A stretch of DNA of 64,000 bases from an uncultured Bacteroidota bacterium (GTDB lineage: Bacteria; Bacteroidota; Bacteroidia; B-17B0; Aurantibacillaceae), in assembly GCA_937873155.1 (NCBI GenBank), contig CALMVZ010000011.1, forward strand, positions 372,001-436,000. Reading direction: 5' to 3'. This document shows positions 9,238 to 14,438 of this stretch, one piece after another. The notes beneath the pieces are model-generated. The model saw only the letters and a program-made list of their open reading frames with translations, ran no database searches and was not told the origin of the DNA. Within the stretch, counting starts at the first letter, position 1. Each line of letters starts with the position of its first letter. The position numbers and the translations under genes were made by a program.

Positions 9238-9246
9238 AGGTTATAA

Positions 9247-9262
9247 TGTTTCACGTGGAACA
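9247..9262 (-). promoter_or_regulatory. parS-like ParB-binding site 3
   Basis: Identical 16-mer to site 2 (minus strand TGTTCCACGTGAAACA), located 9 nt after the methyltransferase stop and 5 nt before the terminator hairpin. Exact duplication of a 16-mer 598 bp apart is very unlikely by chance and supports a ParB/Spo0J loading zone. Confidence 0.87.
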
Positions 9263-9267
9263 ATCTT

Positions 9268-9292
9268 AAAGGGACTTCGGTCCCTTTTCTTT
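9268..9292 (+). terminator. Rho-independent terminator with TTCG tetraloop
   Basis: Stem AAAGGGAC / GTCCCTTT closed by the stable tetraloop TTCG, followed by TTCTTTT. It ends the mnmG-methyltransferase unit. Confidence 0.88.
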
Positions 9293-9999
9293 TGTGCTTC
9301 ACTTAATTCTTTGCTTTAGGACGGTTATTGACCGTCCACTTGAGTTAAGAATGTTCCAGACGCAAGTACTTAAGTTAAACTTTTAACAAATGTATTCTTT
9401 ACAACCCTCTTTTGCGACTAAAGAAATATTTAACATTGAATAGAATAACTTGAATTCCTCTAGTGCGCTAAAATCAATTATTAGCATATTATAATCTGTT
9501 ATAAAAACTTATTTTTCATAGTCATGATATAAATATAAAGATGTTTAAACAACTTGTTAAAACCTTAACTTAACACCTCTTTCCTTTTGTTTCCTTAACT
9601 AATCGTTAAAGTCAGGGAGAATAATTGTATTCCAAAAGCTTTGATGAAACCAACATACACTTTGCCTCTAATAGATGACAAATAGCAAAACTTTATGGTC
9701 GCTACAAGAAAACACCTGACTCGAGAATTTGGAATGTATTAGCGAAAGCCGAAAGGACAATTAAACAAAACAATTCCAAACACCATCCTAAGAGGAGCCG
9801 GAGAATCCGGTATTAATTACTTTTTAGAAGCTTGAGATTGATAAGAATAATTTATCCGGGTCGAGGAGCCGGGTTTTAAATTGTGTTCCGCAAACAAACA
9901 AACAAGCCGTATAAAGGAAATGAATCTTAAAAGGAAGCTCTGTTTTAATTCCGTTTTTGTCTGTTTTTATTTAGTACTTTGGTTGAAGCGTTGGCCTCA
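9293..9999. other. ~0.7 kb non-coding, AT-rich region next to the parS cluster
   Basis: I find no open frame longer than about 15 codons with a usual start on either strand. The part from about 9420 to 9600 is very AT-rich and contains the palindrome TGTTTAAACA at 9542-9551. The distal part holds small GC-rich hairpin-like segments: GAGGAGCCGG occurs at about 9791 and again, preceded by a C, at about 9863, the first followed by GAATCCGG. No convincing DnaA box (TTATCCACA-like) is visible. It could be an origin-proximal spacer, a small RNA gene or a long leader for the phosphatase pair; none is proven. Confidence 0.5.
9319..9337. repeat. Inverted repeat GGACGGT-TATTG-ACCGTCC
   Basis: Perfect 7-bp arms around a 5-nt spacer. 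It lies 27 nt beyond the methyltransferase terminator and lacks a T-run, so it looks more like a protein-binding site or RNA hairpin than a terminator. Confidence 0.6.
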
Positions 10000-12183
10000 A
10001 TGAAAACTAAATTAAAATACCTTTTCCTCCTTTTGTTTTCTTCAGCGCTCGCCTACTCTCAAAACACAGAAAGCATTTCGCGATCTTTAAGAAAGCTTCA
10101 GAAAAAGGACCTTCATGATACGAGTAAGATCAGCATATATCTGACATTGGCCTCAGAATATATTTCCTACTACAACGACAGCTCACTTTGTTTCCTTGAT
10201 GCAGCAGACGATCTTTTAAAAGTTCGCCGCGATCCAAAAGCAGAACGCGACGCAAAGTATTTACGCTCAATAGTTTACTATACAACCTCTGACTTTGACA
10301 AAGCCCAATGGCCTCTAAACCAAGCGATTAAGTTGGCCAGGGAAGCTAATGACAATGAGATTTTAGCGCAGTCGTATAATTTAATGGGCGCGATTCAATT
10401 TAACTTGGGAAATTATCCGGAAGCAATAAAACAATACAACAATAAATTAGAAATCGTAAAAGCAATTGGTGATACGATCTCGATCATCGAAACGTATTAT
10501 AATATTTCGTTGATCAATAATGCAGAGGGAAGTTATTGCCAATCCCTCGAAAACAATTATGCGGCATTAAGTCTGTCTGAAAAAAAGAGAGATTCTGTCA
10601 GTATGATGGTAGTATACGAGGGCCTCGGAATTTCATACACCAAAATAAACGATACTAAAAAAGCCATTATCAATTTAAAAAAGGCTTTACAGATCGCTAT
10701 TAATTACGGGAAGACCTATGAAGAAGCCGGCATTTGGGTAGATCTCGGAAACGTTTACCAGGCCAAAGGCGAACAGGAAAAAGCGCTCTACTATTATAAA
10801 AGGGGAGAGGAAACAGCAAAACGGAACGGCGATAAATTAGTAGAATCGATAGCGCTTTCCGGTAAAGGGGTTTCATTAATGAAGATGAAAAAGTATGAAG
10901 AGGCACTTTCTATTTTTGATCTCGCAAACATAATTCATAACGACGTCGCATATAAAAAGGGGATAGCCGAAAACCAATTGCACATGTCAGAGTGCAATAT
11001 CGGTCTTGGAAAATATAAGGAAGCCAGGGTGCTGGCCTTGAATTCTTTGTTAGAATCGAAACAGATCGGCGAAAGGAAACTGGAAGGGGACGCCTACTAT
11101 TCTTTGAGCGCGATCTATGAGAAATTAAACAATTGGGATAGTGCGTATTTCTGCTTCAAGAAACATATTCAAATAGACTCTGCGCTTAGCGATCAGAACA
11201 TGATAAAGAAAATTGCTGATTTTGAAGCGGCCCGCGAAAAAGAGAAAAAAGACGAAGAACAAAAGAACGCAGAAAGATTAGCTCAGGCGGAATTCGAAAA
11301 GCAAAAACAAATCCGAAACATTATCTTGGCCGCCTCAGGAATTGTTTTGCTTCTCTTGTTGTTTTATTACCGGAACTTTAAAAAGAATCAAAAAGCCAAT
11401 ATTGAGATCAAAGAAAAGAAAACAGATATTGAACATAAGAATAAAGATATCCTTGACAGTATTAATTATGCGAAACGTCTGCAACAGGCAATCTTGCCTG
11501 ATAACCGGGAAATAAAACAGCTTTTGCCGGGAGCCTTCGTGATCTATAAACCAAAAGAAATCGTAAGCGGTAATTTTTATTATGCCGAGCGAGATGAAGA
11601 GAATGTGATCCATGTGGCGGTTGCTGATAGCGCCAAGCAAGGTGTGCCCGGAGCCTTCATGAGCATCTCGGTTTATAATACGTTAAAACAAGCTTTGAAA
11701 AAGAAAGACAAAAAGGATCCGGCCGCGGTTTTGAACGACGTTGATAAAGGCCTAAATGATTTTTTGAGAAATAATGCGGGCGCCAAACATAAAGAGGGAG
11801 TTATAATGGCGTATTGCAATATTGATCTGAAAGAAAAAAAACTAAGATTTTCCGGCAGTGGAATACCATTATGGATTTCAAGGACAGGAAACGAAGTAAT
11901 CGGCGAAGAAATAAATTCTGACGGGAAGAGAAAACTCTATGAACTGAAAACAATAGCGCTGCCGCTCGGAAAAGATCAAACCGCAAAGAAGTTCGAGGCC
12001 CACGAAATAACTATTGAAAGCGGGGACAGGGTCTGTTTTTTCACAGAAGGTGCGCTTTCCCAAACACAAGAGCTTTCTGTTCTATTAAACAACGAATCAG
12101 CAACAGAAGAAAACATAATTAATGCATTTAACACAAAAGCATCCCAGCTGAAAGATGTTTGTTTAATGACTATCAGGTTTTGA
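10000..12183 (+). CDS. TPR / SpoIIE-like protein with degenerate phosphatase site (putative pseudophosphatase)
   Basis: 727 residues from ATG 10000; an in-frame TTG at 9979 is less likely because the signal peptide (MKTKLKYLFLLLFSSALAYSQ) starts here. Order: signal peptide, about 8 TPR-like repeats (~30-400) predicted to face the periplasm, one membrane helix (~437-455), a coiled coil, and a C-terminal SpoIIE/PP2C-like domain (~490-727). Compared with its downstream paralogue, the metal-binding and catalytic signatures are altered: VSGNFY for VSGDFY (N525), ADSAKQG for ADCTGHG (D543 kept), EGVIMAYC for DGMDIAFC, FTEG for FTDG, KDV for DDV. It is probably inactive as a phosphatase and may sense or regulate. 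It overlaps the next gene. Confidence 0.85.
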   Translation: MKTKLKYLFLLLFSSALAYSQNTESISRSLRKLQKKDLHDTSKISIYLTLASEYISYYNDSSLCFLDAADDLLKVRRDPKAERDAKYLRSIVYYTTSDFDKAQWPLNQAIKLAREANDNEILAQSYNLMGAIQFNLGNYPEAIKQYNNKLEIVKAIGDTISIIETYYNISLINNAEGSYCQSLENNYAALSLSEKKRDSVSMMVVYEGLGISYTKINDTKKAIINLKKALQIAINYGKTYEEAGIWVDLGNVYQAKGEQEKALYYYKRGEETAKRNGDKLVESIALSGKGVSLMKMKKYEEALSIFDLANIIHNDVAYKKGIAENQLHMSECNIGLGKYKEARVLALNSLLESKQIGERKLEGDAYYSLSAIYEKLNNWDSAYFCFKKHIQIDSALSDQNMIKKIADFEAAREKEKKDEEQKNAERLAQAEFEKQKQIRNIILAASGIVLLLLLFYYRNFKKNQKANIEIKEKKTDIEHKNKDILDSINYAKRLQQAILPDNREIKQLLPGAFVIYKPKEIVSGNFYYAERDEENVIHVAVADSAKQGVPGAFMSISVYNTLKQALKKKDKKDPAAVLNDVDKGLNDFLRNNAGAKHKEGVIMAYCNIDLKEKKLRFSGSGIPLWISRTGNEVIGEEINSDGKRKLYELKTIALPLGKDQTAKKFEAHEITIESGDRVCFFTEGALSQTQELSVLLNNESATEENIINAFNTKASQLKDVCLMTIRF

Positions 12184-14438
12184 GATATTGGATCATCATA
12201 TTTATCTTTTTTGTTTTTGACCTGCCGGCCCAGAAGGAAAAACCGCAACCAAAATATTCAGCTGCTGACACGGCTGCAATACGACTAATGATCAATAAAG
12301 GAACCGATCACGCCTCTAATAATAACGATAGCGCAATGTGGTACGCCGATAAAGCAATTGACGTCTCGCTTAAGATCAGGAACGATATTTTGCTTGCCAA
12401 TGGATTTTACCTGAAAGCCAAAGTATATTATTTTGGTTCCGATTTTAGTTCGGCGCAATTCTATCAATACAAAAGCCTGGTTTTGGCACAAAAATTGGGA
12501 GAGCGGGACCTTGAGTCAAGAGCTTATAATCTTGGTGGCGCCATCTTTTTCAATCTTGGGAAATATGATGACGCCCTAAAACAATATAACAACCGTTTAA
12601 AGATCAGCTCCTCGCTAAAAGACACAAGTTCGGTTATACAGGCTTATTTCAACATCGCCCTTCTGTATAACACAAAGGGCTTACACGACCGGGCGGTAGA
12701 AATGAATTATAAAGCGGTAGAGATCGCAGAAAAGCGCCACGACACGATCAACATGATGGCCCTGTATGAGGGATTGGGGCAATCTTATTATCAAATGAAA
12801 GACAAAGCAAAAGCAACGGCCTTTCTGAACAAAGCGTATCAGCTTGCCCTTATTAAAAATCAAGAATATGAACAGGGTGGAATATTGATCGATCTCGGGA
12901 ATATCTATCAGCAGGACGGATATATCAATAAGAAGGAGGGAGAACAATACCAGGCGATCTATTATTATAACGATGCGATCAGAATTACAAAAAAGAACGG
13001 GGACAAAAGGAGACAAAGCACGGCAACCTCGAACAAAGCGAAATCTTATCTTATTTTAAAAAGATATAAAGACGCCCTGGCCTTCAATGAAGAAGCAACG
13101 AAGATCAACATTGAGATCAATTATACAAAGGGGATCTGCGACGGTTTTGTAACCAAGGCTGAATGTTATTTAGAAACAGGGAAGGAAAAGGAAGCCGAAG
13201 AAGCGGCGTTGAAGGCACTGGAAATCGCAAATAATTTAAAGTCTGAAAAAGAACAACACGATTGTTGCGTTCTCCTAAGCAGGATATATGAAAATAGAAA
13301 AGATCCAAAGAACGCTTACAAATATTATAAAAAAGCAATAGAGCTGAACGATACAATCGAAGACAGGACGAAGATCAAATCAATAGCAGAGCGCGGTCTC
13401 GAATACGAGCGAAAAAAAACAGAGCGACAACAGGAGTTCAAAGTATTGGAAGAAAAAGCGCGCCTTAGAAAGCAAAAACAGATCCGGAATGTTTTTCTCG
13501 GCGGCGGAATTATTATGTTGGTCATTCTTTTGTTCATTGTAAGGATCTATCTAAAAACACGGCGTGCCAATGCGGAGATCGCCAGGCAAAATAAAATACT
13601 TGAAGAAACGAACGCAAGAATTATCGAGAGCATAGATTATTCGCAGAACATTCAACAAAGTATTTTGCCGCAGCGCAATGCAATCGATAGGCTCTTTCCG
13701 GATTATTTTGTTCTGTACAAACCTAAAGATATTGTTAGCGGGGATTTTTATTTTATAGAACCAATACAAACTACCAGGGTAAGCTTAATAGCTTTTGCGT
13801 TAGCGGATTGTACCGGTCACGGTGTTCCGGGCGCGCTAATGAGTTTAATGGGACACAGCATTTTAAAAGAGTGTTTAAAGGCACCCGAAGTAAATAGTCC
13901 GGGCGAAGGATTGGATTATTTAAATAGAGAACTCTATTCGTTCTTGCGCCAGGGACAAAAAGAAGAACATATCATGGACGGAATGGATATTGCGTTTTGT
14001 ACAATTGATATGGTAACCGGAGAGGTCATGTTCTCCGGAGCAAATAATCCGTTATGGATCGCAAGCAGGAGAAAGAACATAAAAGATAGTTCAGGAAATG
14101 AGTTGAAGTTAAATAATGAAATGAATGGAAACTATCTGTACGAGATAAAAGCTACTAAGCAGCCCATCGGTTTTAACGAGAACCCGAAACAATTCTTAAA
14201 TCACAAATTAAGATTAGAGAAGGGCGATACGCTGTATTTATTCACTGATGGATTTGCTGATCAGTTCGGAGGCCCCAAAGGAAAGAAATTCAAATACAAA
14301 CAACTTGGTGAGGTTCTTTTGAATTCAACAAACAAAACGATGCCGGAACAGAAACGCGACCTTGAAAATTCATTTGCGAACTGGAAAGGAAATTTAGAAC
14401 AGGTAGATGATGTTAGTGTTCTGGGAATCCGTTTCTAA
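12180..14438 (+). CDS. TPR / membrane / SpoIIE-type (PP2C) serine phosphatase
   Basis: About 752 residues. There is no ATG. The TTG at 12180 overlaps the upstream TGA and gives a good signal sequence (MRYWIIIFIFFVFDLPAQ); a TTG at 12159 is possible. Order: TPR repeats (~35-400), membrane helix (~440-460), coiled coil, SpoIIE domain (~485-752). The catalytic set is intact: D522 (VSGDFY), D543 (ADCTGHGVPGA), D603 (DGMDIAFC), D690 (LFTDG), D743/D744 (DDVSVLGIRF). It is therefore a likely Mn/Mg-dependent Ser/Thr phosphatase of the RsbU type, controlled by an extracytoplasmic TPR sensor. It is a tandem duplicate of the preceding degenerate gene and probably co-translated with it. The substrate is unknown; no anti-sigma antagonist gene is nearby. 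Confidence 0.9.
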   Translation: MRYWIIIFIFFVFDLPAQKEKPQPKYSAADTAAIRLMINKGTDHASNNNDSAMWYADKAIDVSLKIRNDILLANGFYLKAKVYYFGSDFSSAQFYQYKSLVLAQKLGERDLESRAYNLGGAIFFNLGKYDDALKQYNNRLKISSSLKDTSSVIQAYFNIALLYNTKGLHDRAVEMNYKAVEIAEKRHDTINMMALYEGLGQSYYQMKDKAKATAFLNKAYQLALIKNQEYEQGGILIDLGNIYQQDGYINKKEGEQYQAIYYYNDAIRITKKNGDKRRQSTATSNKAKSYLILKRYKDALAFNEEATKINIEINYTKGICDGFVTKAECYLETGKEKEAEEAALKALEIANNLKSEKEQHDCCVLLSRIYENRKDPKNAYKYYKKAIELNDTIEDRTKIKSIAERGLEYERKKTERQQEFKVLEEKARLRKQKQIRNVFLGGGIIMLVILLFIVRIYLKTRRANAEIARQNKILEETNARIIESIDYSQNIQQSILPQRNAIDRLFPDYFVLYKPKDIVSGDFYFIEPIQTTRVSLIAFALADCTGHGVPGALMSLMGHSILKECLKAPEVNSPGEGLDYLNRELYSFLRQGQKEEHIMDGMDIAFCTIDMVTGEVMFSGANNPLWIASRRKNIKDSSGNELKLNNEMNGNYLYEIKATKQPIGFNENPKQFLNHKLRLEKGDTLYLFTDGFADQFGGPKGKKFKYKQLGEVLLNSTNKTMPEQKRDLENSFANWKGNLEQVDDVSVLGIRF

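Follow-up and report, generated by a model that had tools for sequence, protein, structure and literature searches.

Two overlapping genes lie on the forward strand of the 64,000-nucleotide stretch of DNA that we analyzed (the window). Gene A (10000..12183), which starts with an ATG at 10000 and stops at 12183, encodes a 727-aa protein predicted to be a membrane TPR pseudo-PP2C of the SiaA/SpoIIE type. Gene B (12180..14438), which starts with a TTG at 12180 and stops at 14438, encodes a 752-aa TPR SiaA/SpoIIE phosphatase of the active type. The tetranucleotide TTGA (12180..12183) holds both the stop of A and the start of B, an overlap that suggests translational coupling and has counterparts in the ATGA overlaps of a second operon described below. 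An alternative TTG start for B is present at 12159; residues are numbered here from 12180, the start that fits the numbers given in an earlier first-pass annotation of this DNA. That annotation described adjacent paralogs sharing a signal–TPR–TM–coiled-coil–SpoIIE architecture, with an intact upstream frame and overlapping genes, and our results agree: both frames are open, the shared architecture is recovered by Pfam and by the sequences themselves, and the phylogenetic tree confirms that A and B are sister paralogs. In both proteins, a signal-like N-terminus is followed by TPR repeats and a single hydrophobic segment; a helical linker then leads to a SpoIIE/PP2C domain (PF07228). They are 38% identical over most of their length, and both belong to the PF07228 family (43.1 bits for A and 71.1 bits for B against a gathering cut-off of 25).

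The N-terminus of A is a signal-like segment (MKTKLKYLFLLLFSSALAYSQ; 10000..10062) that would direct export. It is followed by a TPR superhelix (residues ~40–398; 10117..11193), recognized by TPR_12 and other Pfam families and by the helices of the AlphaFold2 model, which the signal–TM topology places, by prediction, outside the cytoplasm as a sensor. A hydrophobic run (IILAASGIVLLLLLFYY; ~441–457; 11320..11370) within a continuous helix marks the transmembrane segment. The helical linker, or alpha0 (~459–505; 11374..11514), is the best conserved part of A, as judged by identity to its ortholog A′ (see below) and by profile scores, and it leads into the degenerate PP2C domain (506–727; 11515..12180), the C-terminal half of which is eroded. 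In B, the corresponding parts are a TPR superhelix (~28–393; 12261..13358; Pfam and AlphaFold2), a transmembrane segment (~438–456; 13491..13547; sequence and AlphaFold2), a helical linker/alpha0 (13548..13679; profile scoring and AlphaFold2) and a PP2C domain (13680..14435).

The neighbors of the pair in the window are mnmG, methyltransferase, VOC, aminopeptidase P and M90 genes; SiaB, SiaC and STAS genes were sought beside A and B within the window, and none were found. An intergenic stretch of 762 bases (9238–9999) precedes A. A search for regulatory RNA upstream of A gave no Rfam match, and the Bacteroidota promoter pattern was absent there and no more common than chance in the window.

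The closest solved structure to the PP2C part of both proteins is P. aeruginosa SiaA (6k4e; E = 9e-19 for A and 7e-32 for B). AlphaFold2 models made with locus-derived alignments reached a pLDDT of 89 for A and 87 for B, and Foldseek matched them to 6k4e with TM-scores, normalized by the PP2C target, of 0.78–0.80 and 0.89–0.90, respectively. In the model of A, a single helix (399–498) crosses the membrane and continues as far as the PP2C domain. According to these models, A probably still folds as a complete TPR–helix–PP2C protein; with a fold that is predicted to be kept and catalytic residues that are lost, it has the properties of a pseudophosphatase. The first-pass annotation had proposed aligning the C-terminal domains with RsbU/SpoIIE structures as a check; among phosphatases, SiaA proved to be the best match in both structure and sequence, with the active site intact in B and degraded in A.

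SiaA is also the top NCBIfam match of both proteins (NF038263; 101 bits for A and 172 bits for B), through the PP2C and linker region only, and neither reaches the equivalog cut-off of 700 bits. Like SiaA of the SiaABC(D) system, A and B appear to be membrane-bound with a helical segment ahead of the PP2C domain, B has all of the active-site residues, and the source genome carries SiaB/SiaC-family genes beside related SiaA-like copies. On the other hand, the sensor of A and B is a TPR superhelix with one transmembrane segment and a linker, whereas SiaA has a two-TM region and HAMP; furthermore, no SiaB, SiaC or SiaD gene adjoins A–B, and A appears dead from its residues. An operon with a SiaB kinase and SiaC is found not at A–B but at the paralogous second operon on contig C38. 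The second-best NCBIfam match of both is the FimS-type TPR sensor histidine kinase of P. gingivalis, which shares the TPR, transmembrane and helical linker parts; its output is, however, a histidine kinase rather than PP2C, and A and B score far under its cut-off. Similarly, RsbU and SpoIIE of B. subtilis, PPM phosphatases acting on STAS proteins, share the PF07228 fold and the logic of linker- and helix-driven dimerization and switch-helix activation, but they have other sensors, are active and homodimeric, and have no dead paralog as a partner.

The metal-ligand Asps of SiaA are D474, D600 and D653, and the roles of its active-site residues have been described (PMC7647112). In our alignments, SiaA D457, D474, G477, D600, G601 and D653 correspond to D522, D543, G546, D690, G691 and D743 of B, so that all six are kept, as are D603 (SiaA D534) and D694; D744 is also present. 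The six Asps that the first-pass annotation had listed for B (D522, D543, D603, D690 and D743/D744) are among these. The matching columns of A read N525, D543, S544, K546, Q547, G548, I602, E683, G684, S687, K718 and D719. N525 (11572..11574) replaces SiaA D457, K546-Q547 (11635..11640) replaces the Gly-His that begins at G477, I602 (11803..11805) replaces the third Asp (SiaA D534), and E683 (12046..12048) and K718 (12151..12153) replace the metal ligands D600 and D653. Thus, of the six SiaA active-site residues, only D543 and G684 remain in A, and D543 (11626..11628; SiaA D474) is the only one left of the three metal-ligand Asps. After the FTEG motif, A has deletions of ~18 and ~8 residues. 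The substitutions reported earlier for A (VSGN, AKQG in place of TGHG, Ile for the third Asp, FTEG and KDV) all reappear in the alignment; the retention of the motif-2 metal Asp and the relationship to SiaA had been missed. By its metal-ligand Asps (D543, D690 and D743), B belongs with the active enzymes, and A, with D543, E683 and K718, does not. Judged from these residues, A is very probably a member of the PP2C fold but not an active member, and catalysis by A is very unlikely. Since A retains D543 and is still acidic at position 683, we infer the inactivity of A rather than assert it.

Has the degenerate copy been kept? The best match of A outside the source genome, among 87 family genomes, is a 46% identical protein, A′, from another genome of the same genus (G001). 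There, the order mnmG–methyltransferase–A′ runs to one contig end, and the order B′–aminopeptidase P (pepP)–M90-like gene runs from another, as in the window. The A′ contig end shows no fold-back. The first ~250 bases of the B′ contig (C202, L062 1–314) form an 82% near-palindrome that overlaps the 5′ part of B′ and is probably an assembly end artifact; because of this near-palindrome and the two contig ends, we infer the junction of A′ and B′ from the flanking gene order. The active site of B′ is complete, and A′ is apparently dead through changes other than those of A: D457 of SiaA is kept, but D474 has become N, G477 D, D600 G, G601 A and D653 N (the contig stops a few residues short of the C-terminus of A′). 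Neither A nor A′ contains a stop codon, A′ being open to the contig end, at 46% identity and with saturated synonymous sites; because of this saturation, the dN/dS figures below come from SiaA1 and SiaA2 only.

In a tree of 151 TPR-SpoIIE proteins, A groups with A′ (support 1.0) and B with B′ (0.999), the two clades are sisters (0.94), and their nearest outgroup is a single active gene of another genome (G065). This grouping indicates that A and B had already duplicated before the two species separated and that only the A branch has lost activity. The A–B pair occurs in 2 of the 87 family genomes. A search of the remaining six genomes from this genus, three of them 75–84% complete, did not recover it, and the pair therefore seems dispensable for the group. 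The expectation that the pair would occur in relatives thus holds for the syntenic pair of G001 but not across the family. The earlier proposal that the degenerate copy is being kept fares better: G001 holds an ortholog of A that is syntenic, dead and yet intact in frame, and in the second operon dN/dS is well below 1. These comparisons of sequences support the view that A has been kept under selection.

Which part of A has been conserved? We scored A and B against a profile of the other family members, in bits per column. In the linker/alpha0, A scored 2.39 compared with 1.16 for B, and in beta1–beta2 the two scored 1.61 and 1.81, respectively. In the switch helices, A scored 0.72 compared with 1.11 for B, in the rest of the PP2C domain 0.09 compared with 2.07, and in the catalytic columns −1.1 compared with 3.95. 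Similarly, A and A′ are 64% identical in the TM–linker segment (434–505), 46% in the TPR domain and 40% in the PP2C domain, whereas the corresponding values for B and B′ are 46%, 43% and 59%. A conserved linker together with an eroded catalytic half fits a subunit that receives and passes on a signal without catalysis.

Dead copies are rare. Among 249 unique near-complete SpoIIE domains from the loci collected in this lineage, five lack a metal-ligand Asp, and they belong to two locus types. All five directly adjoin an active sibling (A′ on the assumption that the two contigs join), although, with a sample biased to matches of A and to arrays and with A itself picked for its neighbor, this count does not give a probability of adjacency. 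Given this rarity and the sister relationship of A and B, the broken site of A is beyond chance. Of 41 SpoIIE domains in the source genome, 39 keep the three metal-ligand Asps, the exceptions being A and SiaA2 of the second operon. In another genome (G007), all 56 recovered SpoIIE domains keep them, including those in tandem arrays of two to four. We therefore rejected the idea that tandem arrays generally hold a dead copy; the idea that dead copies are widespread in the family was likewise rejected, on the count of five in 249 and two locus types. A family-wide scan for VSGN-type motif-I loss by DNA pattern gave matches at about the control rate and was too unspecific.

The SpoIIE domain is expanded in the source genome and its genus, at ~40–59 matches per genome. 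One domain of the source genome (C10:494541-495137; L058) has Val for the third Asp and keeps all metal ligands. In G001, a TPR-SpoIIE gene (C149:14599-16466) is broken by an in-frame TAA and, unlike A, is a decaying copy. Against its 41 SpoIIE domains, the source genome has 5 SiaC, 4 SiaB-type and 2 STAS matches, and the targets of the phosphatases are therefore probably shared.

The second operon, on contig C38 of the source genome (G000; L108 2927-10132), has the order SiaB–SiaC–SiaA1–SiaA2–SiaA3, with three TPR-SpoIIE genes joined by 4-base ATGA overlaps. Its SiaB-family kinase matches NF038262 above the cut-off, and its SiaC gene matches PF09345. No SiaD was seen in this operon, which sits downstream of a gene for a large PKD/T9SS-type protein. 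Of the three SiaA proteins, SiaA1 is intact, whereas the active-site columns of SiaA2 (N, D, E-K-G, D, N, G, E, D) predict a dead protein. SiaA3 keeps its metal ligands but has G-E-G where G-H-G is expected, and its C-terminal half is shortened. In G004, SiaB and SiaC are followed by an active SiaA1 and a SiaA2 with FTNG and the same metal-ligand loss as in G000, and in G005 an active SiaA1 is followed by a dead ortholog of SiaA3 (K, E-N-G, E). Thus, a live SiaA1 followed by a broken SiaA2 or SiaA3 is found in three species. In another genus (G034), the operon has the same five genes and all three SiaA proteins are intact, which indicates that the loss of activity is secondary in this genus. 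Between G000 and G004, the NG86 dN/dS of SiaA2 was 0.095 overall (N-terminal part, 0.076; PP2C domain, 0.14), compared with 0.035 in the PP2C domain of the active SiaA1; with dS being high, these values are rough.

Could A serve as a dead partner of its active sibling? In RsbU, linker-driven dimerization through alpha0–alpha2 switches the phosphatase on; this mechanism has been proposed to be general, and such dimers are predicted for other phosphatases as well (PMC12143880). The PP2C domain of SiaA likewise forms a dimer (PMC7647112). By analogy with this dimer mechanism, the conserved linker helix of A suggests that A may act as a regulator or heterodimer partner. We consider it an even proposition that A is a dead partner of B, assembling with it through the TM–linker/alpha0 and modulating the action of B on a SiaC- or STAS-like target. 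The tree and the synteny show that A and B arose when the gene for a membrane TPR phosphatase of the SiaA type was duplicated in tandem; as their sequences indicate, B has since remained catalytic and A has not. Selection would have retained A for sensing and dimerizing parts that are still in use. A would then most likely assemble with co-translated B through the TM helix and the linker/alpha0 dimer interface, and its TPR domain might bring in a second signal or set the output of B, either in a heterodimer with one active site or by titrating B from active homodimers. The phosphorylation state of the SiaC-like or STAS-like target would be set by B, with A contributing only through its effect on B. 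Nevertheless, the TM–linker segments of A and B share only 43% identity, and homodimers may therefore be preferred; moreover, most tandem arrays of this lineage are fully active, so that adjacency alone does not imply heterodimers.

An unlikely alternative is that A acts as a decoy or substrate trap and that its PP2C domain, though dead, binds a phosphorylated SiaC- or STAS-like target, or the kinase, and shields the target from B. The predicted retention of the PP2C fold, the presence of SiaB and SiaC in cis in the second operon with dead copies, and the excess of 41 SpoIIE domains over 5 SiaC and 2 STAS matches, which makes competition for shared targets plausible, would all suit such a decoy. 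However, metal-mediated phosphate binding by A should be lost, and the C-terminal half and the active-site loops are its most eroded parts, with deletions. Erosion around the active site makes trapping of a substrate less likely.

It is quite improbable, in our estimate, that A is instead an adaptor independent of B, which would sense through its TPR domain as a homodimer and bind a different effector with its dead PP2C domain. The precedent is E. coli RssB, a dead member of the superfamily with a C-terminally truncated PPM domain that became a protease adaptor (PMC12143880), and the highly conserved linker of A would suit this role. Like A, RssB joins a sensor and a helical linker to an inactive phosphatase domain that goes back to an active relative, and its linker and alpha1 are regulatory. 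On the other hand, RssB is single, soluble and C-terminally truncated, with a receiver domain, and serves ClpXP; A has TPR repeats, a transmembrane segment and an untruncated domain, and would be a full-length membrane protein encoded beside its active paralog. By architecture, A is therefore not of the RssB type. Furthermore, every dead copy that we found directly adjoins an active sibling, which a free-standing adaptor would not need.

We also regard it as quite improbable that A is simply decaying, a redundant duplicate among ~40 such phosphatases that is becoming a pseudogene under relaxed selection. Duplicates are abundant, a related gene of G001 carries an in-frame stop, the PP2C half of A is eroded and evolves faster, and A and A′ lost different residues, as decay would predict. 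However, A and A′ are full-length and open despite synonymous saturation, their sequence is conserved outside the catalytic half, and the low, if rough, dN/dS of the SiaA2 pair extends to its PP2C domain. Weak or altered catalysis through D543, E683 and D719 with a single metal is the least probable reading, and highly so. These three acidic residues are present in A, but they stand beside Lys for the SiaA D653 ligand, Lys-Gln for Gly-His and Asn for D457. In A′, D543 and E683 are matched by Asn and Gly, respectively, so that no residual set is conserved.

Returning to A as a dead partner of B, the first-pass annotation had gone further and proposed a new two-protein signaling module. The part of this proposal that stands is a dead A kept beside a live B; as a general module it reaches too far, given a pair in 2 of 87 genomes and tandem arrays that are mostly live. 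The pattern is better described as a loss of catalysis that recurs among SiaA-type tandem duplicates. In the open-access literature, we found no description of a TPR-SiaA pair that includes a dead member or of overlapping tandem dead/live membrane SiaA-type phosphatases. A dead phosphatase of the superfamily is already known in RssB; what appears to be new, from the sequences, is the recurrence of tandem pseudo-SiaA phosphatases beside live siblings. More tentatively, and with some doubt, we suggest that tandem SiaA-type duplication in this lineage has repeatedly made heteromeric two-sensor receptors, in which a dead TPR protomer would add a second ligand input and gate its co-translated active sibling. 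In eukaryotic receptor pairs, dead kinase subunits gate their partners likewise.

Dead phosphatases of bacteria are little studied, and E. coli RssB is the main precedent that we found. Here, two loci in one genus hold broken membrane phosphatases beside live siblings, and the loss of activity can be placed on the tree because the second locus has live orthologs in another genus. If the dead copy gates its sibling, phosphatases of the SiaA/RsbU type could act as heteromeric receptors, and the pair would offer a simple test of whether dimer coupling needs one active site or two. The finding also bears on how inputs are diversified in a genome with 41 SpoIIE-domain proteins and about five SiaC-type targets.
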